Source: Rhodoferax sp.
GTDB taxonomy: Bacteria; Pseudomonadota; Gammaproteobacteria; Burkholderiales; Burkholderiaceae_C
NCBI GenBank assembly: GCA_031291305.1
Contig: JARLJH010000050.1
Span: forward strand, 1-57,874
Direction of reading: 5' to 3'
DNA length: 57,874 nucleotides
In this document: piece after piece, positions 12,766-36,028 of the stretch
Numbering within the stretch: the first letter of the stretch is position 1
How the letters are laid out: every line of letters starts with the position of its first letter
Notes under the pieces: generated by a model
What the model saw: the letters and a program-made list of their open reading frames with translations, nothing else
What the model was told of the DNA's origin: nothing
Databases searched by the model: none
Position numbers and translations under genes: made by a program

Positions 12766-15700
12766 ATGCTCGCATCTATAGGCTTTGACCCCGCCACGAC
12801 AGCGTGGTTCGGAGCAATCATCCTCCTGTTCGGCGAGATATTCGCTCTGCTTTCGCTGCGAAACCTCCCCCGATTGATCATCGTCTCAAGCATCGCCGAA
12901 GTTGGCTATGTCTTGATGGGACTCGGACTCGGTGGGGCATCCGGCGATACCGGAGCGATGATGCACCTCGGCTACCAGATCGTCATGCGCGGTCTGGTTG
13001 TGCTGACCGCCTGGTGGCTGATCCACCGCACTGGCTCATCCAAGCTTGATGATCTCGCAGGCAGCGGCAAACGTATGCCGGTTGTGGCCACACTCTTTGG
13101 CTTTGGCATGTTTTCGGTGATGGGGTTGTCACCATTCAAAGGGTCGTTCAGCAAATTTCTGATCCTTTACGCCGCCATTGAACAAGGTCACTGGTTGCTG
13201 GCCGCCTTCGGCACGCTGGCAAGCATCATTGCTGCCGTGTATTACATCCACATCATTCAGCGGGTTTGCCTTGAACCGCAGGGTAATGCCATTCAACTGA
13301 AAGCCGCTCCGTCCCTGTTGTCGATTCCGATCGGTTTGCTGACTGCGCTGACGATTTTCATGAGCGTCTGGCCCGAGCCCATGTTGCACCAGGCAGCTGC
13401 GCTGGTCGGTGTTCTCGATGTTTCATTGGTGCCGCAATTTGAGTCACCCTGGTCAACACTGGTGCTTGTGCCTTATGTCGGCGGCTTTGTCCTCTATGCC
13501 GTCGGCTTGAAGGCGCGGTTGATGCGCGATGCACTGGCCGTGCTGTTGGCCTTGACAACACTGGTACTGGCGGTGATCCAACCCAACCTTGACCCGGCAT
13601 CGCATCTCTTTTCCATGCTGTTCGCAGGCATTTCCTGCTTGGTCATTCTGTACTCGGTTGGCTATATGAAGCATAGCGAGCACAGTAATCGCTACTACTT
13701 CTTCGCGTTTCTGATGACCGGCTCGATGCTTGGGCTGACTTCTGCATCCGAGTTTGGTAACTTCTACGTGTTCTGGGAGCTGATGACCTGGAGCTCTTAC
13801 TTACTGGTGGTGCATGAGCAGACACCGAAAGCGCTCAAGGCCGGTATGACGTATTTCCTGATGTGTGCCGGGGGCGCTTACATCATGAACTTCGGAATTC
13901 TGCTGGTGCACTCCCAGATGCACACCTTTGAGTTTGCCACCGTGGCAGCTCAGATTGGTCAGATGAATCCGGCAGTAGGCATGCTCGCCGCGCTGTGCTT
14001 CTTTATCGGCTTTGCGGTCAAAGCAGGTTTTGTTCCCCTGCATTCCTGGCTGCCTCTGGCCCACCCGGAAGCGCCCTCGTCGATTTCTGCGCCTCTGTCT
14101 GGCATTCTGACCAAGGCAGGTATTTTTGGCATCGTCAAAGTATTGTTTGTGATCTTCGGAACCACCGCGCTGACACGCTTCGCCGGTGCCGGATTCGACC
14201 TCGGCTTGCTGCTGGTCGTGCTGGGTTGCGTCACCCTGGTGTACGGTGAAGTGATGGCGCTGCTGCAAACTGAGATCAAACGCATGCTGGCTTACTCAAC
14301 GCTGGCGCAGGTCGGCGAGATCGGTGCGATCCTCGGTCTGGGGACATCGCTGGCAACTTCCGCTGCGCTGATGCATGTTACAAACCACGCCGTCATGAAA
14401 ACGCTGCTGTTCTTTGCAGCTGGTGCGTTCATCATGCAGAGCGGCAAGCGCCAGATCAAGGAGCTGGCCGGATTGGGCAAGGTCATGCCTTTCACAGCAG
14501 GTTGCTACGCCTTGGCAACGATCTCTATCATGGGCTTGCCACCCTTCTCTGGCTTTATCAGCAAATTTTTGATGATCACCGCTGCGGCTGCGGCAGGCCG
14601 GATGGATGTCGCGGCGCTGATTCTGGTGGGTAGCGTCATCGCTGCCTTCTACTACCTGCGTATCGTCCGCGTCTTGTTTTTTCAGCCCTACGAAGGTTCT
14701 GCCGTCAAGGAAGCACCAGCCTCCATGCTGGTGGCCATGGGTGTCCTCGCTGCTGCCATCATCTTCGGCGGTGTTGCCCCAGGATTCCAGCTCGATGCCG
14801 TACGTGCCGTTGGCGACCTGATGGCCAGCCGTGGCGGTTTACCACCTGTTGTTTTGCCCGACCTGGTCATCGCTTGGCCTGCCGCCGCCGTGATAGCCAC
14901 CTTGGGTGCCGTCGCTGTCTGGCTGCTGGGCAAATTTGCGCCTAGAGCGGCAACTCGCCTGGCCATCGCGGTACCGCTGGCTGCCTTTGTTGCCATTCTG
15001 GCTCAAGCAGATCGCTATGACACACTGTCCTTCGCCTTTGCCTTGCTGGTCGCCGGTGTCGGCACATTGAACATGGCCTACGCCACCGGTTATATGGCAC
15101 ACGGCCATGCCCAGCCGCGCTTCTATGCAGCCTTCACGCTCCTGATGGCTGGCTTGATCGGCATGGCTGGTAGCCACGACTTTTTCAATTTCTTTGCCTT
15201 CTGGGAGTTGATGAGCAGCTGGGCGCTGTACGTTGCGCTGGTGCATGAAGAAACCGGCGATGCCCGCCGAGAGGCCATGAAGTATTTCATGTTCAACACG
15301 GTTGGTGCAGGCTTCATGTTCCTGGGCATAGCCATGCTTGGCACGGCCAGCGGCAGCTTTGAATTTGCCGCCATTGCCAAGGCTGCGCCACTGATGTCAG
15401 TGACCTCATTGGGCGCTGCACTGATTCTGGTTGTTCTGGGCATGCTGATGAAAGCGGCGATGCTGCCGGTGCGTATTGACTACCAGATGCACCCTGCGAC
15501 CGCGCCGACACCGGTTTCCGGCTATATCTCAGCCGTGCTGCTCAAGAGTGGCCCTTACGGTATTCTCAAAGTGTTCACGGTACTGGGTGGTGCGGTGCTG
15601 TTTGACCGCCTTGGCGTTGCCTCGGGCATGCCGATGCTGATGTACGTGGTGGCCATCATCGGTGGCATCACCTTGCTTTATGCCGGTGCCATGGCGGTGC

Positions 15701-16605
15701 TGCAAAACGGCATTAAACGCCTGCTGATCTACAGCACCGTTTGCCAACTGGGTTACGTCACCATGGCGCTGGCATTGGGAACTACGCTAGGTGTCGCCGG
15801 GGGGCTGATGCACTTCGTCAACCACATGTTTCTCAAGGATCTGCTGTTCCTGTGCGCAGGATGCATCATGGTGTCCAGCCACGCGACGACGCTTGATCAA
15901 TTGGGCGGACTGGGTCGCAAGATGCCCATCACCTTCGGTATCTTCTTGTTTGCAGGCCTGTCCCTGGCAGGTGTGCCACCGCTCAATGGTTTCTCTTCAA
16001 AGTGGCTGATTTATCAGGCTTCATTCCAGTCGGGACACTACGTACTGGGTGTCTTCGCGCTGGTGTCCAGCGTGTTCACCCTGGCGGCCATTCTGAAGTT
16101 CGCCCACTCGGCTTTCATGGGCTCACCGGGTGCCGCTGCGGAACATGCCCAAGAAGCACCGGCCATCATGCTGGTGCCGATGGCCATTCTGACCACGGCT
16201 TGCGTCGCGATTGGCATGATGCCCGGACTCCTGCTGGTTCCCATCGCCAGCATCCAGCAAAGCCTCGGCATGGTGCCGATTGCCGCTAGCTGGACTGGTC
16301 CGTTGCCTGGTACGGGAGGGTGGCATCCGGGCGTACTGTCCGTGTTGGTGATCTTGCTAGCTGGTGTCTCAATGTTCTATTTGCGACTGGGTCGTGCTGG
16401 CAAGGCAATCGTTCGCTCACCAATCCACCTGTGCGGTGTTGCCGATATCACTCCGGTCATGGCTCAAGTCAACGCCTCTAACTTGTTTGAAACGCCAGAC
16501 GAGACGATACGTGGATTGCTGCACGCATCACACGACACCGGGTACAGCGAGGATGACTCCGCCCCCCATGGACACGCTGTCTCTATTGAAATCAAACCGG
16601 CCTGA
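12766..16605 (+). CDS. fused proton-pump (Mrp/ND-type) subunit of group 4 hydrogenase
   Basis: Membrane protein of 1279 residues fusing several copies of the complex I antiporter-like fold (NuoL/M/N, HyfB/D/F). Residues 1 to about 235 match only the second half of a module (SSIAEVGYVLMGLG, then MGLSPFKGSFSKF). Residues about 240-690 and 700-1190 are complete modules. Module 2 has the TM5 glutamate (FWELM, E338) and TM7 lysine (VKAG, K419); module 3 has E814 and K896. Each ends with a LPPFSGF-like helix break. It should translocate ions when the hydrogenase turns over. The ATG at 12766 has AAGGA eight bases upstream, so the half-module is the real N-terminus. It is the first gene of the hydrogenase operon. 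The fusion and the 2.5-module make-up are unusual. Confidence 0.9.
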   Translation: MLASIGFDPATTAWFGAIILLFGEIFALLSLRNLPRLIIVSSIAEVGYVLMGLGLGGASGDTGAMMHLGYQIVMRGLVVLTAWWLIHRTGSSKLDDLAGSGKRMPVVATLFGFGMFSVMGLSPFKGSFSKFLILYAAIEQGHWLLAAFGTLASIIAAVYYIHIIQRVCLEPQGNAIQLKAAPSLLSIPIGLLTALTIFMSVWPEPMLHQAAALVGVLDVSLVPQFESPWSTLVLVPYVGGFVLYAVGLKARLMRDALAVLLALTTLVLAVIQPNLDPASHLFSMLFAGISCLVILYSVGYMKHSEHSNRYYFFAFLMTGSMLGLTSASEFGNFYVFWELMTWSSYLLVVHEQTPKALKAGMTYFLMCAGGAYIMNFGILLVHSQMHTFEFATVAAQIGQMNPAVGMLAALCFFIGFAVKAGFVPLHSWLPLAHPEAPSSISAPLSGILTKAGIFGIVKVLFVIFGTTALTRFAGAGFDLGLLLVVLGCVTLVYGEVMALLQTEIKRMLAYSTLAQVGEIGAILGLGTSLATSAALMHVTNHAVMKTLLFFAAGAFIMQSGKRQIKELAGLGKVMPFTAGCYALATISIMGLPPFSGFISKFLMITAAAAAGRMDVAALILVGSVIAAFYYLRIVRVLFFQPYEGSAVKEAPASMLVAMGVLAAAIIFGGVAPGFQLDAVRAVGDLMASRGGLPPVVLPDLVIAWPAAAVIATLGAVAVWLLGKFAPRAATRLAIAVPLAAFVAILAQADRYDTLSFAFALLVAGVGTLNMAYATGYMAHGHAQPRFYAAFTLLMAGLIGMAGSHDFFNFFAFWELMSSWALYVALVHEETGDARREAMKYFMFNTVGAGFMFLGIAMLGTASGSFEFAAIAKAAPLMSVTSLGAALILVVLGMLMKAAMLPVRIDYQMHPATAPTPVSGYISAVLLKSGPYGILKVFTVLGGAVLFDRLGVASGMPMLMYVVAIIGGITLLYAGAMAVLQNGIKRLLIYSTVCQLGYVTMALALGTTLGVAGGLMHFVNHMFLKDLLFLCAGCIMVSSHATTLDQLGGLGRKMPITFGIFLFAGLSLAGVPPLNGFSSKWLIYQASFQSGHYVLGVFALVSSVFTLAAILKFAHSAFMGSPGAAAEHAQEAPAIMLVPMAILTTACVAIGMMPGLLLVPIASIQQSLGMVPIAASWTGPLPGTGGWHPGVLSVLVILLAGVSMFYLRLGRAGKAIVRSPIHLCGVADITPVMAQVNASNLFETPDETIRGLLHASHDTGYSEDDSAPHGHAVSIEIKPA

Positions 16606-16617
16606 GAAAGACACATC

Positions 16618-17574
16618 ATGCTTGAATCGCTGTACACCCCTTTTGCTGCACTACTTTTTCCAGGTGGATTGTTTGCCTTGGCGCTTGGCTTGGCGCTGAA
16701 AGGCCTGGACCGGCGGTTGGCTGCACGCCTTCAGGCGCGCGTCGGACCACCTCTGGCGCAGCCCCTGTATGACCTGGTTAAATTGGCCAGAAAACGCACC
16801 ATGGTGCCGGACAGCGCCAATGAGTCCGTATTTCTTGGTGCGCCGCTGATCGGTGCTGTGTCCATGGCCCTGGCTGCGGCACTCGTGCCTATCCCGGGTT
16901 TTTACACGCCCAGTCCGGTGCTCGGTGACCTGTTGGTCTTGCTCTATCTGCTGACCGTTCCTGCGGTCGTATTGATGATCGCCGGTTCAGCATCCGGATC
17001 GCCCTTCGGTGCCATCGGTTTCTCACGCGAAATGGCGATGATGCTGGCCTACGAAGGGCCGCTGGTGCTAGTGGTTGCGGCAGTCGCCATGCGCACCGGC
17101 ATGGGCATGGGGGGGGTGATCAGTTTTTCACTGGCAGACATCATTGCTTACCAGCAAAGCCACGGTGCTTTCTTGTTTGATCCGGTTATGTGGCCAGCGC
17201 TGCTCGCTTTCCTGGCCTTTTATCCGGCCAACCTCGGCATCATTCCCTTCGACATCCCCGAAGCGGAAACCGAAGTCCTGGAAGGCCCGCTGCTTGAGTA
17301 TTCGGGTCCTGCACTGGGCTTGTTCAAGATCATGTCGGCACTGAAATCGGTGGTGGTGCTCGGGCTCGGCGTGGCGCTGTTTTTCCCGCTTGCACCTACA
17401 GGCGTCGCAGGCCTGCTGGTTCAAGTTGCCAAACTGGTGATTCTGATGTTGATCGGTGTCACCGTCGTGCGGGTCTCTTGTGGTCGTATGCGCATCGACC
17501 AGGCCTTCCGCTTTTTCCTCAAATGGCCACTGGCACTTTCTGTTCTTTCTGTCGCCATGGTCGCGCTTGCCTAA
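16618..17574 (+). CDS. group 4 hydrogenase membrane anchor, NuoH/HyfC-like
   Basis: NuoH/HycD/HyfC-family membrane subunit, 318 residues, about eight transmembrane helices. Family motifs are visible: RLQARVGPPLAQPLYDLVKL in the first cytoplasmic loop, the FSREMAMMLAYEGPL segment, and the acidic loop DIPEAETEVLEGPLLEYSG, which in complex I lines the quinone or E-channel. It links the peripheral electron-transfer arm to the antiporter-like subunit. It follows the fused pump gene after 12 bases and precedes the small subunit gene. Confidence 0.94.
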   Translation: MLESLYTPFAALLFPGGLFALALGLALKGLDRRLAARLQARVGPPLAQPLYDLVKLARKRTMVPDSANESVFLGAPLIGAVSMALAAALVPIPGFYTPSPVLGDLLVLLYLLTVPAVVLMIAGSASGSPFGAIGFSREMAMMLAYEGPLVLVVAAVAMRTGMGMGGVISFSLADIIAYQQSHGAFLFDPVMWPALLAFLAFYPANLGIIPFDIPEAETEVLEGPLLEYSGPALGLFKIMSALKSVVVLGLGVALFFPLAPTGVAGLLVQVAKLVILMLIGVTVVRVSCGRMRIDQAFRFFLKWPLALSVLSVAMVALA

Positions 17575-17587
17575 CGGAGAACATGAT

Positions 17588-18040
17588 ATGACTACTTTGA
17601 TTCAGACGCTCTCCAACCAGGCACGCAACATGGCCGCGCGTTCGCCCTGGATCTACCGCATCAATGCCGGTTCCTGCAACGGATGCGACGTCGAATGCGC
17701 AACCACGGCGCTCATCCCCCGTTATGACGTCGAACGCCTCGGGTGTCAGTATTGCGGCAGCCCGCGTCATGCCGATATTGTGCTAATCACTGGGCCGCTA
17801 ACGGCACGCGTCAAGGATGCCGTCATGCGCGTCTACAACGAAATCCCTGAGCCTAAAGTCACGGTCGCAGTGGGCGTATGTCCGATCTCCGGCGGCATTT
17901 TTCGTGATGGTTACGCGGTGCTCGCCCCCATCGGCCAACATCTTCAGGTCGACGTGAACGTCCCCGGCTGTCCACCACGGCCACCAGCCATCATTGAAGG
18001 TATCGCTCAGGCTATTGCAATCTGGCGCGAGCGTCTTTGA
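17588..18040 (+). CDS. group 4 [NiFe] hydrogenase small subunit, NuoB/HycG-like
   Basis: Small subunit of 150 residues carrying the proximal [4Fe-4S] cluster next to the NiFe site. Ligand motifs are GSCNGCDVE (C30, C33), VGVCPISGG and the C-terminal VPGCPPRP. Like other group 4 small subunits it has no Tat signal and no medial or distal cluster domain, which marks it as a cytoplasmic, membrane-attached enzyme. The start at 17588 has GGAG upstream; the longer in-frame start at 17456 lies in the preceding gene. Electrons pass from the NuoI-like subunit through this cluster to the active site. Confidence 0.95.
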   Translation: MTTLIQTLSNQARNMAARSPWIYRINAGSCNGCDVECATTALIPRYDVERLGCQYCGSPRHADIVLITGPLTARVKDAVMRVYNEIPEPKVTVAVGVCPISGGIFRDGYAVLAPIGQHLQVDVNVPGCPPRPPAIIEGIAQAIAIWRERL

Positions 18041-18059
18041 AAAATAAAAAGGAATGGTC

Positions 18060-18563
18060 ATGAGTTTTGTCAAAACATTGATTAGCAATTTGGTTCACGG
18101 GCCATCCACCGAAGCCTACCCCTTTGGTCCGGCTTGGACACCGGCTCATTTTCGCGGCCGTGTCGAGTTCAAGCTTTCCTCCTGCACTGCCTGCCGCGCT
18201 TGCGAGCAAGTGTGCGCACCCGGAGCCATTCGCTTCGACAAGACGCCGGAGGGACTGCGCTTCATGTTGTGGCATAACACCTGCGTGTTTTGCGGCCTGT
18301 GCGAGTTTTACTGCCCCACCGATGCTATTCATCAAACTAACGACTGGCATATGGCGCACGCCACCGAGCGCCAATATGAAATCGGAATACGTGAGGTGAT
18401 TCCCTATGTCAGTTGTACCGGCTGCGGACTCAAGGCACTCGCCAGTGCCCCTAATCCCGGTGGTGTCGAGCCACCGTTTTCTCCAGAGGAAGTAGAAATT
18501 CAACGTAACCTTTGCCCAGCCTGCCGCAAAAAGGCGTTGGCAGAACGAGGAGTTCAAAAATGA
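18060..18563 (+). CDS. group 4 hydrogenase ferredoxin-like subunit, NuoI/HyfH-like
   Basis: Electron-transfer subunit of 167 residues with two [4Fe-4S] motifs, CTACRACEQVCAP and CVFCGLCEFYCPT. The C-terminal part adds CTGCG and CPACRKK pairs, possibly a zinc site or further cluster ligands. It receives electrons from soluble ferredoxin. The ATG at 18060 has AAGGA at good spacing; an ATG six bases earlier is less well placed. The stop overlaps the next gene (ATGA). Confidence 0.93.
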   Translation: MSFVKTLISNLVHGPSTEAYPFGPAWTPAHFRGRVEFKLSSCTACRACEQVCAPGAIRFDKTPEGLRFMLWHNTCVFCGLCEFYCPTDAIHQTNDWHMAHATERQYEIGIREVIPYVSCTGCGLKALASAPNPGGVEPPFSPEEVEIQRNLCPACRKKALAERGVQK

Positions 18564-19150
18564 GCGTACTGCCCGACAACATTGAATCGAGCCTGGCCTG
18601 TGCAGCGCCATCTGGCATCCAGCTGACCAGCACCAGCAACGCCAAAGGCGTCTGCTCAAGCTGGTGCACCTTGGCAGACAAGGATGATTTGCTATCTGTC
18701 GCCAAGCTGATGAAATCCATGGGTGCGCGCCTGTCGACAATTACCATCTTGCAGCCAAAGGCCAAGTCTGCGCCGCCAGCCAAGGAGGATGAAACACCGG
18801 TTGCACCCACCTTCTTTGGTGGCACCGCCACCGACGGTAAGACGTTCGAGATCGATTACCACTTTGATATCGACGGTGACACACTGACACTGGTCGTACA
18901 TGTGCCTTATGGAGGCGATGTGCAGTCGCTGACGACACTGTTTCGATGCGCCGATTGGCCCGAGCGCGAATTGATGGAACTCTATTCCGTCGTCGTTCGT
19001 GGTCATCCCGATCCACGGCGCTTGTTTATCGATCCGGGCATAGAGAACGCCGTGTTGGAACGCCTGATTCCTTTTTCGACACTGGTCAATAGCGCCACCA
19101 CCAAAGGCCTATGGGAAAAGATATTGGCCAATAAGGGAAGTCAATCATGA
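18560..19150 (+). CDS. group 4 hydrogenase NuoC-like subunit (HycE N-domain type)
   Basis: NuoC/30-kDa-like subunit, 196 residues, separate from the large subunit rather than fused as in E. coli HycE and HyfG. The recognisable part is FRCADWPERELMELYSVVVRGHPDPRRLF, of which the segment DWPEREL...RGHPDPRRL is the family hallmark. The N-terminal half is divergent. The start at 18560 overlaps the previous stop; the stop overlaps the start of the large subunit gene, so the three genes are tightly coupled. Confidence 0.9.
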   Translation: MSVLPDNIESSLACAAPSGIQLTSTSNAKGVCSSWCTLADKDDLLSVAKLMKSMGARLSTITILQPKAKSAPPAKEDETPVAPTFFGGTATDGKTFEIDYHFDIDGDTLTLVVHVPYGGDVQSLTTLFRCADWPERELMELYSVVVRGHPDPRRLFIDPGIENAVLERLIPFSTLVNSATTKGLWEKILANKGSQS

Positions 19151-20232
19151 GTAACTTTACTATTCCTGTCGGTCCGCTCAACGTAGCGCTCGAAGAACCG
19201 ATGTATTTCAAAGTCGACGTGCATGGCGAAACAGTTTCTAATGTGGAGATTCATGCAGGTCACGTGCATCGCGGTATCGAGTACCTGGTGACCAAACGCA
19301 ACGTGTTTCAAAACCTGGTGTTGACCGAGCGCATCTGCTCCTTGTGCTCCAACAGTCACCCTCAGGCCTACGCGATGGCGATTGAGCAGATTGCTGGGCT
19401 TACTGTGCCGCCGCGCGGCGAATACATGCGTGTCATCGCAGATGAGATCAAGCGAGTGGCTTCGCATCTGTTCAATGTTGGTGTTTTGGCCCACTTGGTC
19501 GGTTTCGAGTCACTGTTCATGCACGTCATGGAAGTTCGTGAAACGATGCAGGATGTCAAAGAGTCCATGTTCGGCAATCGCATGGATCTGGGGGCGCATG
19601 TCATCGGTGGCGTGCGCTTTAACTTCAATGACGAGAACATTGCCTACCTCAAGGCGCAGCTTGACCGCATCGCACCGGAGGTAGCCGAGATCACCCATAT
19701 CTATCGCAGCAACAGTTCGATTCTCAGGCGCACGCGCGGCATCGGCGTCCTGTCCCACGCTGACGCCATTGAATGCTCAACGGTAGGACCGGTCGCACGC
19801 GCGTCGGGCGTCAATTACGACGTTCGCGTCAAGGCTCCTTACGCAGCCTACGACCGTCTCGAAGTGCCTGTACATATTCTTCCAGATGGCGATGTCTGGT
19901 CGCGTGCAATGGTTCGCCTGCAGGAAGTCGCTACTGCGATCGACATTCTTCGTCAGTGTCTAAATGCTTTGCCTGCGGGGCCAACATCGTGCACCACTGA
20001 GCGCCCCCCCATCCCGGTTGGAGAGGCCATCGGCAAGTGCGAGGCGCCAAGGGGTGAACTCATTTACTACGTGCGCATGACCGACTCGCCAAAGCCGGAG
20101 CGGGTCAAATGGCGCGTTCCGAGCTTCATGAACTGGGATGCACTGCGTTTCATGCTGAAAGACGCCAAGATTGCCGACATAGCGATCATCGTGAACAGCA
20201 TTGACCCATGCATATCCTGCACTGAGCGCTGA
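19147..20232 (+). CDS. group 4 [NiFe] hydrogenase large subunit, NuoD/HycE-like
   Basis: Catalytic subunit of 361 residues. Both CxxC pairs that bind nickel and iron are present: ERICSLCSNSH (C64, C67) and DPCISCTER (C355, C358). This separates it from complex I NuoD and from Ehr-type proteins that lost the metal. The protein ends three residues after the last cysteine, so the C-terminal extension normally removed by a HycI-type protease is absent, as I recall for CooH-type hydrogenases. No protease gene is present. It should interconvert H+ and H2 using ferredoxin electrons, coupled to ion pumping. Last gene of the six-gene hydrogenase operon. Confidence 0.95.
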   Translation: MSNFTIPVGPLNVALEEPMYFKVDVHGETVSNVEIHAGHVHRGIEYLVTKRNVFQNLVLTERICSLCSNSHPQAYAMAIEQIAGLTVPPRGEYMRVIADEIKRVASHLFNVGVLAHLVGFESLFMHVMEVRETMQDVKESMFGNRMDLGAHVIGGVRFNFNDENIAYLKAQLDRIAPEVAEITHIYRSNSSILRRTRGIGVLSHADAIECSTVGPVARASGVNYDVRVKAPYAAYDRLEVPVHILPDGDVWSRAMVRLQEVATAIDILRQCLNALPAGPTSCTTERPPIPVGEAIGKCEAPRGELIYYVRMTDSPKPERVKWRVPSFMNWDALRFMLKDAKIADIAIIVNSIDPCISCTER

Positions 20233-20823: not shown

Positions 20824-20861
20824 ACCTACTGGCGTCGTACGAAAGTAATTGCGAGGTACCT

Positions 20862-27986: not shown

Positions 27987-27987
27987 C

Positions 27988-28443
27988 ATGTCCGACGAAG
28001 ACTTCCGCGTCGCCGAACTGGCGCTCAAGGGTTACAAGTGCAGCCACATCCTGGTACAGATCGGTCTCGATGCACTGGGCAAGAGCAATCCCGAACTGTT
28101 GCGCGCCATGTCGGGCCTGGCCAGCGGCATGGATGCCGGGCTGACCTGCGGCGTACTCACCGGCGGCTGTTGCATGATCGGAATGTATGCGGGTACTGAC
28201 TACGCGGAGCACGAAGAACACCCCCGTCTACCCCTGATGCTGGAAGAATACGTCGAGTGGTTTCGCGAAGAAGCCGCACAACGCTACGGCGGCATCGACT
28301 GCGAAACAATCATGCACAACGACCCGCGCCTGCGCAATGAACGCTGCCCAGGACTGATCCGCGATGCCGTTCTCAAGGCTAAAGAAATCCTTGAGGTGAA
28401 CGGCTTCGAACTCGACGGCCGCAGTGGCATCGAACAGGTTTGA
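27988..28443 (+). CDS. C-GCAxxG-C-C family protein, DVU_1555-like
   Basis: Protein of 151 residues with the cysteine signature of the C_GCAxxG_C_C family: GYKCSHILVQIG, later GLTCGVLTGGCCMIGMYAG, and a distal NERCPG. Members are small all-helical proteins with conserved cysteines, thought to bind a redox centre or act in electron transfer; no member near MOP has a proven function to my knowledge. One base separates it from the methyltransferase stop. The C-terminal third (ECF-like EEYVEWFREE) is acidic and probably structural. Confidence 0.82.
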   Translation: MSDEDFRVAELALKGYKCSHILVQIGLDALGKSNPELLRAMSGLASGMDAGLTCGVLTGGCCMIGMYAGTDYAEHEEHPRLPLMLEEYVEWFREEAAQRYGGIDCETIMHNDPRLRNERCPGLIRDAVLKAKEILEVNGFELDGRSGIEQV

Positions 28444-28456
28444 CGAGGGAATGCCA

Positions 28457-29599
28457 ATGTCAGAAACTCGCCGCCCTCCCGTCTTTGCGGCCTTGATCCT
28501 GGCTGCCGGTTACTCCTCGCGCATGGGGCATTTCAAGCCACTGTTGCCGCTTGACGGTAAAACCGTGATCGAATCTTCCATCGGCACATTTCACGGTGCC
28601 GGCATCAGCAGGATCATGGTTGTCACCGGTCATGAAGCCGAACAACTGCAGCCCTTGCTAAAAGACATGGGCATTTCAGCCGTGCACAACCCGTACTCCG
28701 CAAGTGGCATGTATTCCAGCGTACAAGCGGGCATCCAGGCATTGCCGGGCGATGTGGACGCCTGTTTTTTGTTGCCCGCCGATATCCCGCTGGTGCGCCC
28801 AGTAACCGTAAAAATGATCACCGAACGTTACGCATCGGGCCAACCGTCCGTTGTCTATCCTGCGTTCCAGGGACAACGCGGGCATCCGCCCCTGATCGCC
28901 AACAGCCTATTTGCTGAAATTCTTGCGGGGAACGGCGAAGGCGGACTGTGTGCCTTACTTCAACGCCATGAAACAGATGCCAGCAAAGTCGAAGTCTTTG
29001 ATGAGGGTATCCTGCTCGACATGGACACCCCGCAGGACTATGCGCGGCTGACAAAACTGGCACCGCGCCACCACGTTCCGACGACGGCTGAATGCGAAGC
29101 CATTCTCTCAGCGCTGGCGGTGCCCGAGCCGATCTGCCGCCACGGGCGTGCCGTCGCTGAGATCGCAGAGGCCCTGACAAACCGGCTCAATACACACGGC
29201 CTCACCATCGACCCGGACTTGGTGCGCGCCGCAAGCCTGTTACACGACATTGCCAAGGGGCAGCCCGCACACGCCATGGTGGGTGCTGCCATCGTGACCG
29301 AGCTCGGTTTCCCGGAGGTGGCCAACATCATCAGGCAACACATGGATATGAACTTTGACGGAGGCGCGCCAAGGGAAGCGTCCATTGTTTTTCTCGCCGA
29401 CAAACTGGTGAAGGAAGACCACTGCGTGTCTCTGGAAGAACGTTTCCGTCCGGCTTTCGAGCGCTTTGTCAACCAGCCGCAAGCGCTGCGCGGAGCAACC
29501 CGGAAATACGCCACTGCACGCGCAATTCTTGCCGCTGTCGAGCGCCAGACCAAGGCAACTGCAACTGAAATCTTCAAACATTGCGGAGCACCGGCATGA
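28457..29599 (+). CDS. MobA/MocA-like nucleotidyltransferase fused to HD domain, DVU_1551-like
   Basis: Two-domain protein of 380 residues. Residues 1-200 are a molybdopterin nucleotidyltransferase fold with LILAAGYSSRMGHFKPLLPL and LLPADIPLVRP; MocA relatives attach CMP to make the cytosine dinucleotide used by xanthine oxidase-family enzymes. Residues about 215-375 form an HD phosphohydrolase domain with LLHDIAKGQ and the flanking histidines. The start at 28457 has GAGGGA seven bases upstream; another ATG at 28451 is too close to it. The HD domain could hydrolyse a nucleotide or pyrophosphate product. The transferase activity is well supported by family, the HD role is inference. Confidence 0.88.
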   Translation: MSETRRPPVFAALILAAGYSSRMGHFKPLLPLDGKTVIESSIGTFHGAGISRIMVVTGHEAEQLQPLLKDMGISAVHNPYSASGMYSSVQAGIQALPGDVDACFLLPADIPLVRPVTVKMITERYASGQPSVVYPAFQGQRGHPPLIANSLFAEILAGNGEGGLCALLQRHETDASKVEVFDEGILLDMDTPQDYARLTKLAPRHHVPTTAECEAILSALAVPEPICRHGRAVAEIAEALTNRLNTHGLTIDPDLVRAASLLHDIAKGQPAHAMVGAAIVTELGFPEVANIIRQHMDMNFDGGAPREASIVFLADKLVKEDHCVSLEERFRPAFERFVNQPQALRGATRKYATARAILAAVERQTKATATEIFKHCGAPA

Positions 29600-30996
29600 C
29601 CTTCATTTCGCAACTTCTGGCCGAAACCGAAAGCGTTTGCCCCGTCTGCCTGCAAACTCTGGCGGCACAGCGGGTGCTGGAAGGCGACGACATTTACCTG
29701 TGCAAGCGTTGTCCTGAGCATGGCGAATTCAAGACCATCGTCTGGCGCGGCTTCGAGACCTACCAGCGTTGGGAGGCGCGCGGCAGCCGCGCAGCGACAC
29801 CGCCGGTCACGGAAACCGCCATCAAGCACGGCTGTCCGCACGACTGCGGCATCTGTCCTGACCATCGCCAGCACAGTTGCTGCGTGCTGCTAGAAGTGAC
29901 GCAACGCTGCAACCTGCGTTGCCCGGTCTGCTTCGCTAGTGCTGGCGGCGAAAACGACGATCCGTCGCTCACGGAAATCGACGGCTGGCTCGACCGCCTG
30001 CGGGCGCACGGCAGCACCGTCAACATCCAGCTCTCCGGCGGCGAACCCACCGTGCGTGACGACCTGCCAGCCATCGTGCGGCGAATCCGCGCGCGTGGCT
30101 TCGACTTCGTTCAGGTGAACACCAACGGCATCCGCCTAGCCAAGGAGGCGAGCTACGCGCACTCGCTCGCCGACGCCGGTCTCGATTGCGCCTTCCTGCA
30201 ATTCGACGGTGTCAGCGACGAAACTTACCAGCGCATCCGTGGCGCACGCCTGCTGGAGATCAAGCGGCAGGCCATCCGGCGCTGCGCAGAAGCCGGTCTC
30301 GCCGTGGTGCTGGTACCGACGCTGGTGCCGGGCGTGAATATCGACGAAATCGGTGCCATCGTCGATTTCGCGCTGGCCCGGGTCCCGGCGGTACGCACGG
30401 TACATTTCCAGCCGATCAGCTACTTTGGCCGCTACCCGGTGCCGCCCGCCGACGCAGATCGCTTCACGCTGCCGGAGGTGATGGTCGAGATCGAGCGCCA
30501 GACAGCAGGCCGGGTTCGCGTCGCCGACTTTGGGCCGGGCACCTCCGAAAACGTCTTCTGTTCCTTTGCTGGCAAGTTCGAAGTCGCCGACGACGGCAGC
30601 TTGCGCTCCGCACGGCAGGCGGCTGCGGGCTGCTGTAGCTCCAGCCCATCGCAAGGCGGTTGCGGTTGTGGCAAGCCGGTCGGTGATGAAGATGGCCCAC
30701 GCTCGCGGCGCATCGTCGCCCGGCAATGGGCCGCGAATGCGCGGCAGCCGCTGGTCAGCACACCGGCCGACGCAGGCCTCGCCAGTTTCGATGCCTTCCT
30801 CGCCGCACGCGGCCATAGCTTCAGCATCTCCGGTATGGCCTTTCAAGATGCATGGAACCTCGACCTCGAACGACTGCGTGAATGTTTCATCCACGTTGTC
30901 TCGCCCGACCGGCGCGTCATCCCCTTCTGCGCTTACAACCTGACATCGGTGTCCGGCGAATCCCTATACCGGCGTCCTGCCTGTGCCGAAGCCTGA
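29596..30996 (+). CDS. radical SAM protein, TrsS-like, cysteine form
   Basis: Radical SAM enzyme of 466 residues. The SAM-cluster motif CNLRCPVC has C105, C109 and C112, preceded by cysteine clusters CPVC...CKRC (15-39) and CPHDCGICPDH (80-90), a layout shared with the COG1964 group (MJ0619-like). Near residue 345 is GCCSSSPSQGGCGCGK; related proteins carry selenocysteine in this family (TrsS, recalled), while this one has cysteines. The ATG at 29596 overlaps the previous stop. The substrate is unknown. Its neighbours suggest radical-based modification of a sulfur-containing or pterin cofactor, or of the C-GCAxxG-C-C protein. Confidence 0.85.
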   Translation: MTFISQLLAETESVCPVCLQTLAAQRVLEGDDIYLCKRCPEHGEFKTIVWRGFETYQRWEARGSRAATPPVTETAIKHGCPHDCGICPDHRQHSCCVLLEVTQRCNLRCPVCFASAGGENDDPSLTEIDGWLDRLRAHGSTVNIQLSGGEPTVRDDLPAIVRRIRARGFDFVQVNTNGIRLAKEASYAHSLADAGLDCAFLQFDGVSDETYQRIRGARLLEIKRQAIRRCAEAGLAVVLVPTLVPGVNIDEIGAIVDFALARVPAVRTVHFQPISYFGRYPVPPADADRFTLPEVMVEIERQTAGRVRVADFGPGTSENVFCSFAGKFEVADDGSLRSARQAAAGCCSSSPSQGGCGCGKPVGDEDGPRSRRIVARQWAANARQPLVSTPADAGLASFDAFLAARGHSFSISGMAFQDAWNLDLERLRECFIHVVSPDRRVIPFCAYNLTSVSGESLYRRPACAEA

Positions 30997-31000
30997 AACC

Positions 31001-32335
31001 ATGCCTGCCCCCAATCCGCTCGATGCGTGGACGGCTGCCAAACTTGGCTGTCGCGCAGCGTCCTTTTCCCGCACAGAGTTGCGCGACTACCAAACCATGA
31101 GACTGCGTGAGACCATCACATGGGCGAAGCAGCGCAGCCCCTTCTACCAGCGCCTGCTGGAAGACTTCGATGAGTCTGCACTGATCTCACTGGATGACCT
31201 GCAGCAATTGCCTTTCACGACTGACGAAGACATTCGCCTGAACGCGCCACCGCTGCTGTGCCTTTCACAAAGTGAAATCAGTCATGTGGTGACATTGAAT
31301 ACATCCGGCACCAGTGGCCAACCCAAGCGTCTGTTCTTCACAGCGAATGAGTTGGAGGCAACGACGGACTTCTTCCACCATGGCATGTGTTTGCTGGCGC
31401 ATCCCGGTGATCGTGTACTGATTCTGTTTCCCAATGAGCGCCCTGGCAGCGTCGGTGATCTGCTGGCCAAGGCATTGCGGCGTTTGGGGGCCACGCCAAT
31501 CATGGCGGGCTGGCCGCAAGACCCCGCGGCAACAGCTGCTTTGCTGCGTCGCGAGCAACCCGATGTGGTGGCGGGTACGCCCGTTTCCATGCTGGCAGTA
31601 GCTCGTCACAGTGTTGCCACAGGCTTGCCGCCCATTCGTATCCAGCGCGTGCTGCTCAGTGCTGACCATGCAGCGGCGAGCGTCAGACGGGGCCTGACGG
31701 CACTGTGGGGCTGCGAAATATTCGAGCACTACGGCATGACTGAAATGGGATTGGGCGGTGGTGTCGATTGCACGGCCCATGCGGGCTACCACATGCGTGA
31801 GAGCGACCTTCTGATCGAGGTTGTGAATCCATCGACTGGAACAACGGTTGCAGATGGCGAAATCGGTGAGGTCGTGTTCACCACGCTGACCCGACGCGGC
31901 ATGCCGCTGATTCGCTATCGTACTGGCGACTTGTCACGACTCCTGCCTGGAACCTGTGCTTGCGGTTCGCCGCTGGCAAGTCTGGAACGATTACATCGCC
32001 GTGTGCGCGGTGGTATTCGACTCGATGGAGCGGGCGAACTAAGCATGGCGATGCTTGATGAGTGTCTTTTGAATATGGACGGCATTGCTGATTTCAATGC
32101 GACTTATCGGCACGGAACGCCTGATGTTCTCGAGCTTGAAATTACCGCCGTCAGCGGTCATGCAATAGATGCCGCACGGCTGCAAGCCGCCGCGCGTGCT
32201 GCACTCGAAAACATGACACCTGTTGCTTCCGCTAGATCAACCCAAAGCCTCAGTTTGCAGGTCACGGTGTCACCCAGCAGAAACATTCCACGTCGTTCAG
32301 GCAAAAGAATTCTTGTCGAGGATGCGTCTTTATGA
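31001..32335 (+). CDS. PaaK-like AMP-forming ligase, DVU_1553-like
   Basis: Adenylate-forming enzyme of the phenylacetate-CoA ligase family, 444 residues. The phosphate-binding loop is LNTSGTSGQPKR, then YGMTEMGLGGG and YRTGDLSRLLPGTCACG, with a normal C-terminal lobe ending in PRRSGKRIL. It should activate a carboxylate with ATP, possibly making a CoA thioester or an acyl-adenylate. As the aldehyde oxidoreductases in this locus make acids, it might activate their product, but its membership of the conserved accessory set argues equally for a biosynthetic step. The ATG at 31001 follows the radical SAM stop by four bases; an in-frame GTG at 30983 is an alternative. Confidence 0.87.
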   Translation: MPAPNPLDAWTAAKLGCRAASFSRTELRDYQTMRLRETITWAKQRSPFYQRLLEDFDESALISLDDLQQLPFTTDEDIRLNAPPLLCLSQSEISHVVTLNTSGTSGQPKRLFFTANELEATTDFFHHGMCLLAHPGDRVLILFPNERPGSVGDLLAKALRRLGATPIMAGWPQDPAATAALLRREQPDVVAGTPVSMLAVARHSVATGLPPIRIQRVLLSADHAAASVRRGLTALWGCEIFEHYGMTEMGLGGGVDCTAHAGYHMRESDLLIEVVNPSTGTTVADGEIGEVVFTTLTRRGMPLIRYRTGDLSRLLPGTCACGSPLASLERLHRRVRGGIRLDGAGELSMAMLDECLLNMDGIADFNATYRHGTPDVLELEITAVSGHAIDAARLQAAARAALENMTPVASARSTQSLSLQVTVSPSRNIPRRSGKRILVEDASL

Positions 32336-32352
32336 ACAATGTTTTTAAAAAC

Positions 32353-32369
32353 TGTCACAAATAGTGACA
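32353..32369. promoter_or_regulatory. dyad operator, copy 3 (TGTCAC-N5-GTGACA)
   Basis: Perfect 6-bp arms around AAATA, 112 bases before the ferredoxin start at 32482. It lies 17 bases after the preceding stop, within a 146-base gap that should hold the promoter of the tungsten-enzyme operon. Confidence 0.7.
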
Positions 32370-32481: not shown

Positions 32482-32673
32482 ATGGCTTACAAAATCATTC
32501 CCGAACTCTGCCAAGCTTGCGCTGCCTGCGAATCTGAATGCCCCAATCGTGCCATCAGTCACATTGACAAGGTGTACACCATCGACCCGGACAAATGCCA
32601 GGAGTGTCAAGGCACTTATGACAGCCCTATGTGTGCACAACTGTGCAACACCGACGCTTGTGTACCGGCCTGA
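32482..32673 (+). CDS. 2x[4Fe-4S] ferredoxin, Allochromatium type (copy 2)
   Basis: Near-twin of the ferredoxin at 20632: 63 residues, 57 identical, with the same cysteine ligands (C10, C13, C16, C20; C39, C42, C51, C55; extra C60). The ribosome binding site and leader GGAGATCATC before the ATG are also shared, so the duplication included upstream DNA. It is the first gene of the operon with aldehyde:ferredoxin oxidoreductase and is its probable electron acceptor. Differences are concentrated at residues 14-15 and 28-40, near the clusters, and may tune partner choice. Confidence 0.96.
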   Translation: MAYKIIPELCQACAACESECPNRAISHIDKVYTIDPDKCQECQGTYDSPMCAQLCNTDACVPA

Positions 32674-32723
32674 AGCAGCACATTTGCACAGAGGCACTCA
32701 CCTCAACTTAGCAGGAAAAAGTC

Positions 32724-34454
32724 ATGAACAAGATCGTACGCATCAATATGGCTGATCTCACCAGCAGTACCGAACCGGTACCCGCTGAATGGATTGGTTT
32801 GGCAGGAAGAGCTTTAACTTCCACAATCGTCGCCAAAGAGGTTCCCCCAACCTGTCATGCGCTCGGCGCAAGCAACAAGCTGGTGTTCTCCCCCGGCTTG
32901 CTGACCGGCACATCTGCAGCCAATTCTGGCCGCCTGTCTGCCGGTGCAAAAAGCCCGCTCACCGGTGGCATCAAGGAATGCAATGCTGGAGGCACTGCGG
33001 CTCGCATGCTCGCCAAACTCGGCATTCTTGCGTTGATTGTTGAAGGCCTGCCCAAGGAAGACAAGTGGTACAGCATTCATATCGCCAAAGATGCCATCAC
33101 CATCAGCGAAGAAACTGAACTGATCGGCAAGGGCAACTACTGTCTGGTGAACCACGTTCAGGCCCGCTTTGGCAAACCTGTTGGCATCATGTCTGTTGGC
33201 CCTGCTGGCGAAATGAAGATGCTTTCTGCCAACATTTCTGTGGTTGATCCTGATGTGCATATCCGTAGTCTGGGCCGTGGCGGCCTTGGCGCGGTCATGG
33301 GCTCAAAGAAGATCAAGTTCATTTCCATTGACGATGCTGGCACACCGCCAGTGATGCCCAAGGATCCGGTCAAGTTCAAAGCCGCAGCGCGCATTTTTGC
33401 CAAGACGCTACTTGATCACCCTGTGAGCGGTCAGGCTCTGCCCACCTACGGCACCAACGTACTGGTGAACATTCTCAACGAAGCAGGCGGCTTGCCAACG
33501 CGCAACTTCAGCAGCGGGCAGTACGCTGCTCACGACAAGATTTCTGGTGAAACCATGCACGCCACCATCGTTGCTCGCGGCGGTCAGCCCTCTCACGGCT
33601 GCCATCCCGGCTGTCAGATTCAGTGCTCTCAGATTTACAACGACAAGGAAGGCAAGTACCTCACCTCTGGTTTTGAATACGAAACCATTTGGGGTTTTGG
33701 CGCCAACTGCTGCATTGAGGATCTCGATGACATTGCGCAAGCCGATCACATCATGGACGACATCGGCGTAGACAGCATCGAAACACCGGTAATGTTTGGC
33801 GTTGCCATGGAAGCCGGCATACTGCCTTTCGGCGACGGCAAGGGCGTGGTACGCATGTTGCGCGACGATATTGGCAAGGGCACGCCTCTTGGGCGCATCC
33901 TCGGTGGCGGTGCCGGTCAACTGGGTCGCATTTACGGCATGACCCGCGTGCCAGTGGTAAAAAACCAGGGCATCCCTGCTTACGACCCACGCTCCGTCAA
34001 AGGTATCGGTGTCACTTATGCCATGACAACCATGGGTGCCGATCACACCTCGGGATATGCCATCGCTACCAACATTCTGAATGTCGGTGGCCATGTCAAC
34101 CCCCTGTCAAAGGAAGGGCAGATTGACCTCGCTCGTAACCTGCAGATCGCCACGGCGGCGATTGATTCGACCGGAATGTGCTTGTTCATTGCCTTCCCGG
34201 CGCTGGACATCCCGGAATGCCTTTCGTCGCTGATCGACATGATCAACGCCCATTACGCGATCAACCTGACCGGCGATGACGTGACGGCACTGGGCAAATC
34301 GGTATTGAAGATAGAACACCAGTTCAACCTGGATGCAGGCCTGTCCAAGGAGCATGACCGACTGCCGGAGTTCTTCAGTAAAGAAGCGCTCCCACCGCAC
34401 AACGCCATCTGGGACTTCACCCCCGAAGAACTCGATACGTTCTGGAATTTCTGA
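32724..34454 (+). CDS. aor: tungsten-type aldehyde:ferredoxin oxidoreductase (AOR family)
   Basis: AOR-family enzyme, 576 residues. It binds a bis-pterin tungsten or molybdenum centre and one [4Fe-4S] cluster. Cluster ligands are C293, C297 and C301 in GCHPGCQIQC and C486 in DSTGMC, with D481 of the DxxxxC motif. The first cysteine spacing is CxxxC rather than the CxxC of Pyrococcus AOR. AGAKSPLTGG and RGGLGAVMGSKK in the N-terminal domain are pterin-contact signatures. It oxidises aldehydes to acids with ferredoxin, or reduces acids at low potential. It follows ferredoxin copy 2 by 50 bases. The metal cannot be decided from sequence; tungsten is the family default. Confidence 0.94.
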   Translation: MNKIVRINMADLTSSTEPVPAEWIGLAGRALTSTIVAKEVPPTCHALGASNKLVFSPGLLTGTSAANSGRLSAGAKSPLTGGIKECNAGGTAARMLAKLGILALIVEGLPKEDKWYSIHIAKDAITISEETELIGKGNYCLVNHVQARFGKPVGIMSVGPAGEMKMLSANISVVDPDVHIRSLGRGGLGAVMGSKKIKFISIDDAGTPPVMPKDPVKFKAAARIFAKTLLDHPVSGQALPTYGTNVLVNILNEAGGLPTRNFSSGQYAAHDKISGETMHATIVARGGQPSHGCHPGCQIQCSQIYNDKEGKYLTSGFEYETIWGFGANCCIEDLDDIAQADHIMDDIGVDSIETPVMFGVAMEAGILPFGDGKGVVRMLRDDIGKGTPLGRILGGGAGQLGRIYGMTRVPVVKNQGIPAYDPRSVKGIGVTYAMTTMGADHTSGYAIATNILNVGGHVNPLSKEGQIDLARNLQIATAAIDSTGMCLFIAFPALDIPECLSSLIDMINAHYAINLTGDDVTALGKSVLKIEHQFNLDAGLSKEHDRLPEFFSKEALPPHNAIWDFTPEELDTFWNF

Positions 34455-34487
34455 TGCTTTCACCTCAGGTGCCGCAAAGGACCTTTT

Positions 34488-34530: not shown

Positions 34531-34562
34531 GAATTCACTGCAGTCAGTCAGGAAGGCACGGC

Positions 34563-34814
34563 ATGAAGATCACGCTAAGACTCTACGCCACGCTAAATGT
34601 GTATTTGCCGCCAGAAAGCAGCAATAACGAAACAAAGCTTGAGTTGCCTGAAGCGGCCACGGTCAGTGAGGCGCTCGGCGTATTGGCTGTGCCCATGAGC
34701 CTGCCGCACATCATCTTTGTCAACGGGTGCCATGTGTTGCGACCCGACCTTTCGACGCACCAGCTTCAGGACGGCGACATCCTCGGTGTTTTCCCGGCCA
34801 TTGGCGGCGGGTGA
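34563..34814 (+). CDS. moaD: MoaD/ThiS-family sulfur carrier with C-terminal Gly-Gly
   Basis: Ubiquitin-like sulfur carrier, 83 residues, ending FPAIGGG. The terminal Gly-Gly is the site of adenylation and thiocarboxylation by a MoeB-type enzyme; the thiocarboxylate supplies the dithiolene sulfurs of molybdopterin. The E1-like partner is encoded nearby at 36364-37122. It sits between the tungsten oxidoreductase and the flavodiiron gene and probably serves pterin cofactor synthesis for both aldehyde oxidoreductases. The final three glycines leave one residue beyond the canonical GG end. Confidence 0.9.
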   Translation: MKITLRLYATLNVYLPPESSNNETKLELPEAATVSEALGVLAVPMSLPHIIFVNGCHVLRPDLSTHQLQDGDILGVFPAIGGG

Positions 34815-34846
34815 CCCACCTCACCAACAAAGAAAGGGCAATCAAC

Positions 34847-36028
34847 ATGATCGTCAGAGAACTTAAACCCAACGTATATTCCTTGTCAGCCATCGACTGG
34901 GACAGAAAACTGTTCGATGAACTGGTTCCTTTGCCCGAGGGCACCAGCTACAACGCCTACCTCGTTAAAGGCAGCGAGAAAACGGCACTGATTGACACTG
35001 TGCATCCTTCGATGACCGAAGACCTGCTCAAAGCCCTCAAGAGCATGGGCCTAGAACGCCTGGATTACATCGTCTCCAACCACGCCGAACCTGATCACGC
35101 AGGCTCCATCCCGGCCGTGTTGGCCGCTTACCCGCAAGCCAAGGTGCTGGCCAATGTCAAATGCCGCAGTCTGCTGACGTCCAGCCTTAACCTGCCCGCA
35201 GATGCCATACAACTCCTTCAGGACGAACAAGTCCTGTCTCTGGGCGACAAATCACTGCGTTTCCTGTGGGTACCGTGGGTGCATTGGCCGGACAGCACCA
35301 TCACCTATATCGTGGAAGATCACATCATGTTCTCCTGCGACTTTCTTGGCGCGCATCTGGCCACCTCTGATCTGTATGCCAGCGACGAAGCCCGCGTGGA
35401 GCGAGCGGCGCGCGTGTACTACGCCGAAATCATGATGCCCTACCGGCCCAACGTGAATAAACACCTCAAGCGTTTGGAAGATTTATCTATAAAAATGATA
35501 GCTCCAAGCCATGGTCCTGTCTACGCTAGACCTGATTTCATCCTATCTCTTTACCGCCAATGGACTGGCGACGAAACGCGCCCGGAAGTCATCATTCCTT
35601 ACCTTTCCATGTATGAAAGCACGGCCAAGATGGTGGCCTATCTGGTTGACCGGCTCATGGAAAAAGGCATGTCGGTGCAGCCGTTTAATGTGGCCAATCT
35701 GGACTCCGGGCGATTCTCTTCGGCGTTGGTGGAAGCCTCTACCGTTGTCTTTGCCTCACCCACCGTGCTCAACGGCCCGCACCCGGCGATGGCGTACGCC
35801 GCTTACCTGGCCAACGTACTGCGCCCGAAAACGAAATACGCAGCCATCATTGGCTCGTACGGTTGGGGAACCGGCATGCCAGAAAGCCTCGCCGCGATGC
35901 TGACCAACCTGAACGTGAAGTGGTTCGAGCAAATCAATGTGGGAGGCACGGCTAAGGCAGAAGACTTTGTCGCTCTTGATCGCTTGGTGGCCGATATCTG
36001 CGCGGCAAACGGTTTGCTTGCGAACTAA
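34847..36028 (+). CDS. A-type flavodiiron protein (FprA family)
   Basis: Flavodiiron protein, 393 residues. The N-terminal metallo-beta-lactamase domain keeps the diiron ligands: HAEPDH (H79, E81, D83, H84), the histidine in VPWVHWPDS, the aspartate in FSCDFLGAHL and the histidine in APSHGPVYA. A flavodoxin-like FMN domain follows from about 255 (YLSMYESTAKMVAYLV). There is no rubredoxin domain. Such enzymes reduce O2 to water or NO to N2O and protect oxygen-sensitive enzymes; here AOR, the hydrogenase and the ferredoxins are obvious clients. The start at 34847 has AAAGGG upstream. The 3' end overlaps the converging gene by four bases. Confidence 0.94.
   Translation: MIVRELKPNVYSLSAIDWDRKLFDELVPLPEGTSYNAYLVKGSEKTALIDTVHPSMTEDLLKALKSMGLERLDYIVSNHAEPDHAGSIPAVLAAYPQAKVLANVKCRSLLTSSLNLPADAIQLLQDEQVLSLGDKSLRFLWVPWVHWPDSTITYIVEDHIMFSCDFLGAHLATSDLYASDEARVERAARVYYAEIMMPYRPNVNKHLKRLEDLSIKMIAPSHGPVYARPDFILSLYRQWTGDETRPEVIIPYLSMYESTAKMVAYLVDRLMEKGMSVQPFNVANLDSGRFSSALVEASTVVFASPTVLNGPHPAMAYAAYLANVLRPKTKYAAIIGSYGWGTGMPESLAAMLTNLNVKWFEQINVGGTAKAEDFVALDRLVADICAANGLLAN

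Follow-up and report, generated by a model that had tools for sequence, protein, structure and literature searches.

The conversion of CO by CO-hydrogen lyase and of formate by formate hydrogenlyase are the standard low-potential reactions that drive ion-pumping hydrogenases. CO-hydrogen lyase of Rhodospirillum rubrum and Rubrivivax gelatinosus CBS comprises CooFS and the hydrogenase subunits CooMKLXUH, of which CooM, CooK and CooU of R. gelatinosus have 1255, 319 and 180 amino acids (aa), respectively (PMC4257681), and a group 4c hydrogenase was described as being linked to CO via ferredoxin (PMC6018796). Aldehydes have been linked to H2 with the molybdopterin-dependent aldehyde oxidoreductase (MOP) of Desulfovibrio gigas, which was coupled in vitro to H2 via flavodoxin, cytochrome c3 and hydrogenase (PMC10223205). 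We analyzed a stretch of 57,874 nucleotides from Rhodoferax sp. (contig JARLJH010000050.1), referred to in its entirety as the window, from a genome of 4.98 Mb that is 99.99% complete (G000; G and L numbers denote genomes and loci of our samples). A run of plus-strand genes at 12766-36028 contains a hydrogenase, ferredoxin 1, an XdhC-family gene, a MOP cluster, ferredoxin 2, a tungsten-type aldehyde oxidoreductase (AOR), a MoaD-like gene and a flavodiiron protein gene. Judged by its genes, the hydrogenase is a membrane enzyme of the kind that normally converts CO to H2, here without a CO dehydrogenase (CODH). The locus probably encodes an aldehyde-hydrogen lyase, in which, on our best reading, MOP and AOR together with ferredoxin take the place of the CODH-CooF input of CO-hydrogen lyase.

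Gene content of the locus

The genes of the plus-strand run and the matches on which their naming is based are as follows.

12766..16605, plus: CooM-like membrane subunit, 1279 aa (three Proton_antipo_M, antiporter-like, stretches in one chain)
16618..17574, plus: CooK-like membrane subunit, 318 aa (PF00146)
17588..18040, plus: CooL-like small hydrogenase subunit, 150 aa (PF01058)
18054..18563, plus: CooX-like 4Fe-4S subunit (Fer4 families)
18560..19150, plus: CooU-like subunit (PF00329; first ATG of the open frame at 18560)
19147..20232, plus: CooH-like [NiFe] large subunit, 361 aa (NiFe motifs; alignment with HycE and MbhL)
20632..20823, plus: ferredoxin 1, 63 aa, 2[4Fe-4S] with long loop (PDB 2fgo, 1rgv, 3eun, 2zvs, 1blu)
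20781..21698, plus: XdhC-family maturation factor (PF13478, PF02625; open frame, first internal ATG at about 20862; 284 bits against NF045664, under the cut-off of 350)
21815..24571, plus: MOP without FAD domain (NF045668; PDB 1sij)
24773..27076, plus: fusion of a GltD-like N-terminus/flavin-binding part with 4Fe-4S and two CCG domains (NF045663, 974 bits, cut-off 530)
27073..27285, plus: DVU_1557 family redox protein (NF045645, 97 bits, cut-off 60)
27282..32335, plus: DVU_1556 methyltransferase, DVU_1555 C-GCAxxG-C-C protein, DVU_1551 NTP transferase, TrsS radical SAM protein and DVU_1553 ligase-like protein (NF045667, NF045669, NF045665, NF045646 and NF045666, all over cut-off)
32482..32673, plus: ferredoxin 2, 63 aa (57 of 63 residues identical to ferredoxin 1)
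32724..34454, plus: AOR, tungsten-type aldehyde oxidoreductase (AFOR_N, AFOR_C; PDB 9mqx, 1aor)
34563..34814, plus: MoaD-like protein, 83 aa, C-terminal GG (by sequence and size; adjoins AOR orthologs in relatives; no NCBIfam match)
34847..36028, plus: flavodiiron protein, 393 aa (PF19583)

The six hydrogenase genes (12766-20232) follow each other in the order M-K-L-X-U-H and include a very long CooM. Gene order and similar subunit sizes are shared with CO-hydrogen lyase (PMC4257681), and the order suggests that the enzyme belongs to group 4c. With the ERICSLC motif and the C-terminal IDPCISCTER, both NiFe-binding cysteine pairs of CooH are intact, and the alignments of CooH with HycE (7z0s) and MbhL (6cfw) begin at its residue 3 or 5 and run to its C-terminus; the L2 motif was seen in five CooH rows on a further check. 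Formate hydrogenlyase and Mbh, although related in their large subunits, differ from the window hydrogenase in electron donor and subunit make-up, and none of the genes annotated in the locus was recognised as coding for a formate dehydrogenase. Since a search of the window genome for the CODH family TIGR01702 gave no match, we speak of a CooMKLXUH-type complex and not of a CO-hydrogen lyase; in contrast to the latter, MOP, AOR and small ferredoxins take the place of CooF and CooS as neighbors. Among 29 proteobacterial genomes searched, CODH exceeded the TIGR01702 cut-off only in Pleomorphomonas carboxyditropha (G085), where it adjoins a second hydrogenase copy, and weak matches below this cut-off were present in 17 genomes. 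HypF, HypC, HypD and a HypE-like protein are encoded elsewhere in the window genome.

MOP reached 1554 bits against NF045668 (cut-off 1100), and its best PDB match was the D. gigas-type enzyme 1sij, aligned over residues 4-903. It has two 2Fe-2S motifs and Mo-binding domains, and no FAD domain was among its Pfam matches. It is surrounded by the same genes as in the DVU_1551-1557 MOP set named from Desulfovibrio (NCBIfam NF045645-NF045669), but the window version is joined to a hydrogenase and an AOR, whereas the Bacillota loci and a Desulfobulbus locus (L025) contain the MOP set with no CooMKLXUH within the fetched flanks. The two CCG..CxxC motifs of the GltD/CCG fusion protein were kept in 35 of 35 near full-length relatives; a strict motif check was failed by 4 of 33 near full-length MOP rows.

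Both AOR domains, AFOR_N and AFOR_C, scored over cut-off, and the best PDB matches were aldehyde:ferredoxin oxidoreductases. AorABC of Aromatoleum, likewise a tungsten-type AOR of a betaproteobacterium, has three subunits and uses NAD (PMC10413684), whereas a ferredoxin gene precedes the window AOR, next to which neither an AorA- nor an AorC-like gene was recognised. The four cluster cysteines of the window AOR are spaced CxxxCxxxC and not CxxCxxxC, a pattern kept in L132-L149 (18/18, 55-100% identity) and in L154; in a second AOR of the window genome, the first two cluster cysteines are spaced CxxC. Both ferredoxins are read in another frame than the longest open reading frames at their positions, which are without family match. 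Their PDB matches include 1blu and 2zvs and they resemble Allochromatium-type structures, and ferredoxins of that type are known for low potentials; with 66 bits against the YfhL family NF033683 (cut-off 86), they can only be called similar to this family.

An earlier note on this DNA, made from sequence alone, had named group 4 hydrogenase genes with intact NiFe ligands, a FAD-less MOP-type enzyme, a tungsten-type AOR and twin ferredoxins preceding each oxidoreductase segment, all of which were confirmed by the alignments and profile matches given above. The start of the flavodiiron gene is corrected here from 34727 to 34847. The note missed both the CooMKLXUH type of the hydrogenase and the lack of its usual partner CODH.

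Conservation and shared palindromes

Contigs of GTDB r220 were scanned for MOP alone, without hydrogenase information, which yielded 32 loci and 30 searchable genomes; L027 shares a metagenome-assembled genome (MAG) with L018, and the genome of L025 was not part of the genome searches. A CooH-type subunit (called above 500 bits) was present in 25 of these 30 and in 25 of the 27 assigned to the Proteobacteria by record title; it was absent from the Bacillota genomes G073, G077 and G088 and from the proteobacterial MAGs G066 and G074. Larger groups were also sampled, with scoring limited to a few top candidates from each genome. In the class to which Rhodovulum sp. PH10 belongs, the CooH-type subunit was found in 1 of 385 genomes (PH10 itself, the sample's centre), and in the family that includes Propionivibrio soli, it was found in 4 of 297 (G060, G061, G063 and G086, all MOP carriers, the other 293 not having been searched for MOP). 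In the order of G071 it was found in 8 of 248 genomes, with MOP contiguous to CooH in G071, G904 and G884. The window's own family yielded 1 of 399, the window genome itself, on which basis we rejected that the module is an ordinary trait of this family, and among the closest relatives 2 of 60 were positive (G000 and G023), of which only G000 contains MOP. The co-occurrence of hydrogenase and oxidoreductases, proposed as a check in the earlier note, is thus found for MOP across other families of Proteobacteria, whereas the expected constant presence in relatives does not hold in the window's own family.

A second sample comprised 35 CooH loci from 33 genomes other than the window's. In 12 of them, MOP starts at most 1.5 kb after the end of CooH; ten of these loci came from the MOP scan, and eleven contain all six hydrogenase genes. 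They belong to Uliginosibacterium, Paludibacterium, Consotaella, Rhodovulum PH10, a Rhodospirillum MAG, Breoghania, two Cohaesibacter, an Azospirillaceae MAG, Rhodoplanes tepidamans, G904 and G884. CooL was present in all 35 loci. This conserved synteny in distant genomes speaks against a chance neighborhood, which we therefore rejected. A ferredoxin gene lies at most 1.5 kb after CooH in 25 of the 35 loci and in none of the three that adjoin CODH. Four betaproteobacterial loci have no ferredoxin after CooH, and in three of four genomes checked it precedes MOP or AOR instead. Two ferredoxin copies, before MOP and before AOR, also occur in Propionivibrio soli, where hydrogenase, ferredoxin-AOR and ferredoxin-MOP form separate operons within about 35 kb of one contig, and two were found in the G074 locus. 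Relatives of the flavodiiron protein (57-77% identity) lie near MOP or AOR in 12 of the 30 MOP-scan genomes.

MOP is the constant partner of the hydrogenase and AOR an optional one. An AOR ortholog (66-86% identity, one split over two frames) occurs in 15 of the 27 proteobacterial MOP genomes, and a single stretch with hydrogenase, MOP cluster and AOR was seen only in the window among the genomes examined. A ferredoxin gene is located immediately 5' of AOR in G060, G063 and G086; in G023, too, one precedes AOR, with an assembly gap in between. No ferredoxin was found within the 1.5-kb flanks of the alphaproteobacterial orthologs L136-L146. The congener G023 (89% complete) has CooMKLXUH followed by ferredoxin and AOR in a genome without MOP; its CooH is followed by a remnant resembling a ferredoxin end, a palindrome, a second ferredoxin and then the gap before AOR (L101:13379-13995). 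A Bacillota MAG (L016:10001-22724) carries a MOP cluster and an AOR (55%) together in a genome without CooH-type match.

CooMKLXUH was found beside MOP, AOR, a 2-oxoacid oxidoreductase-type gene or CODH, and two settings can occur even within one genome. One hydrogenase copy of P. carboxyditropha is accompanied by ferredoxin and the other by CODH. A second CooMKLXUH-ferredoxin copy of Consotaella (L094:2966-16819) precedes a POR-type oxidoreductase frame of 1541 aa, and a further CooMKLXUH operon (L172:493-13068) has in its vicinity a gene for a histidine kinase and one for a glycyl radical protein resembling pyruvate formate-lyase.

The operons of the window share a palindrome, which we propose as an operator.

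12546..12562: perfect palindrome TGTCAC-N5-GTGACA, proposed operator, between the divergent HypA and CooM genes
32353..32369: perfect palindrome TGTCAC-N5-GTGACA, proposed operator, before ferredoxin 2 and AOR
38365..38381: weaker copy, 10 of 12 positions, before the GAF-AAA-Fis regulator gene
38438..40348, plus: GAF-AAA-Fis regulator, sigma-54 activator type, similar to DhaR/AcoR (Pfam; NCBIfam DhaR best, below cut-off)

A search of the whole genome, made with TGTCACAAANAGTGACA and not with the N5 form, gave four matches with up to two mismatches, compared to two for the reversed control, and the only two perfect copies of TGTCACAAANAGTGACA are the sites at 12546 and 32353. As the pattern was derived from the window, other betaproteobacteria served as test, with the best match within 500 bp upstream being counted. 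Before CooM, 12 of 12 positions matched in G023, 11 in G063, 10 in G060 and G062, and 8 in G061 and G086; before the MOP operon, 12 matched in G060, G063 and G086, 11 in G074, 10 in G061 and 8 in G062; and before ferredoxin-AOR, 12 matched in G023 and G060 and 10 in G063 and G086. Of 453 plain 500-bp segments of these loci, which include the true sites, 23 reach 10, 9 reach 11 and 6 reach 12 matches. All sites with at most one mismatch in the betaproteobacterial loci precede CooM, MOP or AOR operons, except one before a weakly NikM-like gene in G060. The shared sites would tie the hydrogenase and oxidoreductase operons together, and the regulator encoded at 38438, which is presumably AcoR-like, may be the protein that binds them. 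A strict scan for sigma-54 (-24/-12) promoters gave four matches, located between 5 and 41 kb, and none of them coincides with a promoter that carries the palindrome.

Possible routes of the electrons

In an aldehyde-hydrogen lyase, MOP, presumably with molybdenum, and AOR, presumably with tungsten, would oxidise aldehydes with water to acids and would each hand the electrons to their own copy of the near-identical small 2[4Fe-4S] ferredoxin. The ferredoxin would deliver them to CooX and CooL, CooH would form H2, and CooM and CooK would couple H2 formation to ion translocation. The weak step of this scheme is the transfer from MOP to ferredoxin, in which the GltD/CCG fusion protein or the flavodiiron protein could take part. 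Because the potential of aldehyde oxidation lies well below that of the H+/H2 couple, passing aldehyde electrons via ferredoxin to a pumping hydrogenase should be at least as favorable as the CO reaction. The D. gigas chain contains a MOP of the same family and links aldehydes to H2 as well, but it was reconstituted in vitro from soluble proteins without ion pumping (PMC10223205), whereas the window combines genes for a membrane hydrogenase and ferredoxins in one locus. Full-text searches, in which subscription journals were mostly outside the coverage, retrieved no description of a system joining CooMKLXUH with MOP or AOR.

The recurrence of similar arrangements in distant bacteria suggests that energy is gained from the conversion of aldehydes to acids and H2, in a manner so far undescribed. 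If this is true, aldehydes would be a further substrate class for hydrogen lyases, in culturable alpha- and betaproteobacteria, and aldehyde oxidation would become an energy-conserving, H2-forming step. D. gigas-type MOP, as far as we have seen linked to H2 only in vitro so far, would gain a possible in vivo counterpart, and CooMKLXUH operons without CODH, which may be annotated as CO-induced hydrogenases, would be explained. More tentatively, and with a likelihood that we put slightly short of even, CooMKLXUH and a small ferredoxin may form a chassis with exchangeable electron donors, onto which two aldehyde donors, each with a ferredoxin of its own, are stacked with shared operators in the window, and the flavin/CCG fusion beside MOP could be an electron-splitting link by which MOP reaches the low-potential ferredoxin.

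Several observations weigh against an aldehyde-hydrogen lyase. The three Bacillota genomes carry MOP clusters of the same kind without CooH, and MOP therefore does not need this hydrogenase. None of the ten MOP-scan genomes with contiguous CooH and MOP has an AOR ortholog. In Consotaella, the copy beside MOP (L093:7791-11718) consists of CooL, X, U and H with no match for CooM or CooK, and in Pleomorphomonas, hydrogenase and MOP lie outside each other's fetched flanks, although a ferredoxin nonetheless comes after CooH. Two of the eight CooH genomes in the order of G071 (G966 and G1000) have CODH contiguous with the hydrogenase, and G829, G894 and G1007 have neither MOP nor CODH in the fetched stretch. 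The palindrome before ferredoxin 1 matches at only 9 of 12 positions, which is not significant, and the palindrome was not found in the alphaproteobacterial loci; loose versions with up to three mismatches occur 32 times in the window against 28.4 expected, and because they are no commoner than chance, only the perfect sites are informative. The D. gigas enzyme, moreover, worked with flavodoxin and not with ferredoxin (PMC10223205).

This last point, together with the Bacillota clusters and the recurrence of the fusion protein and the flavodiiron protein near MOP, would fit a shared regulation without shared electrons, in which hydrogenase, MOP and AOR are anaerobic enzymes controlled by one regulator and MOP passes its electrons to a different carrier, for example the flavodiiron protein, a flavodoxin or the GltD/CCG fusion. 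We regard this as unlikely because the synteny is contiguous in two proteobacterial groups, a ferredoxin gene lies between the hydrogenase and oxidoreductase genes, and hydrogenase, ferredoxin and AOR directly succeed each other in G023. Somewhat less likely still is a chain that runs mainly in reverse, with H2 and an ion gradient reducing ferredoxin and AOR forming aldehydes from acids, either to dispose of electrons or for biosynthetic use. Oxidation of aldehydes to H2 is the downhill direction, the family of the constant partner MOP is known to oxidise aldehydes, and we know of no acid reduction by MOP. The parts would nevertheless permit the reverse chain: reduction of non-activated acids was described for AORs, and that of Aromatoleum can itself use H2 (PMC9295118). 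Finally, the hydrogenase might still be CO-induced and serve CO oxidation, in line with its gene order and with the CooH copies adjoining CODH being 63-66% identical in CooH. A CO-linked function of the window hydrogenase was rejected for lack of a CODH match in its genome, and we consider a CO-serving role very improbable, given that the only CODH over cut-off in the 29 proteobacterial genomes searched lies beside a second copy and that the three CODH-adjacent CooH rows group with G1007 and G894 (support 99/95 and 82/94 in two trees). We do not claim a root for these trees, as the outgroup rows L037 and L038 of the second one are on very long branches; the CODH group is drawn among the other rows. 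Taken together, aldehyde-dependent H2 formation remains our preferred reading, and the interpretation of the earlier note is partly supported: strongly in its genomic half, while its electron transfer, direction and ion pumping are predictions from gene content.

Surroundings of the locus

The genes for HypA, HypB, a Ni/Co-type transporter, MoeB, MoaA and the sigma-54-type regulator lie outside 12766-36028 and are part of the surroundings. On the minus strand, the upstream flank encodes HypA, HypB, a GlpC-like protein and a CbiMQO-type transporter, and the downstream flank encodes MoeB and MoaA.

6981-7736, 7712-8524 and 8555-9634, minus: CbiO-, CbiQ- and CbiM-type genes (Pfam and NCBIfam matches)
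9687..11255, minus: GlpC-like protein with two CCG (cysteine-rich) domains (PF02754; NF008369 below cut-off)
11204..11959, minus: HypB, nickel insertion (TIGR00073 over cut-off)
11998..12366, minus: HypA, nickel insertion (TIGR00100 over cut-off)
36364..37239, minus: MoeB (NF004281 over cut-off)
37130..38251, minus: MoaA (TIGR02666 over cut-off)

The CbiMQO-type transporter probably serves nickel uptake, with nickel favored over cobalt as substrate because HypA and HypB adjoin. The GlpC-like gene also adjoins the hydrogenase in the congener G023. Farther upstream, three overlapping tyrosine-integrase-type genes are arranged in series on the minus strand (2496-5756), which we take to resemble a recombinase-in-trio element. 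Beside the module, genes for a MacB-like permease, an ABC ATPase, an HlyD-like protein and an outer membrane efflux protein (43053-47801) constitute an export system. A gene at 48949-57354 encodes a protein of 2801 aa with GH94 and glycoamylase-like domains, which presumably resembles a cyclic glucan synthase.

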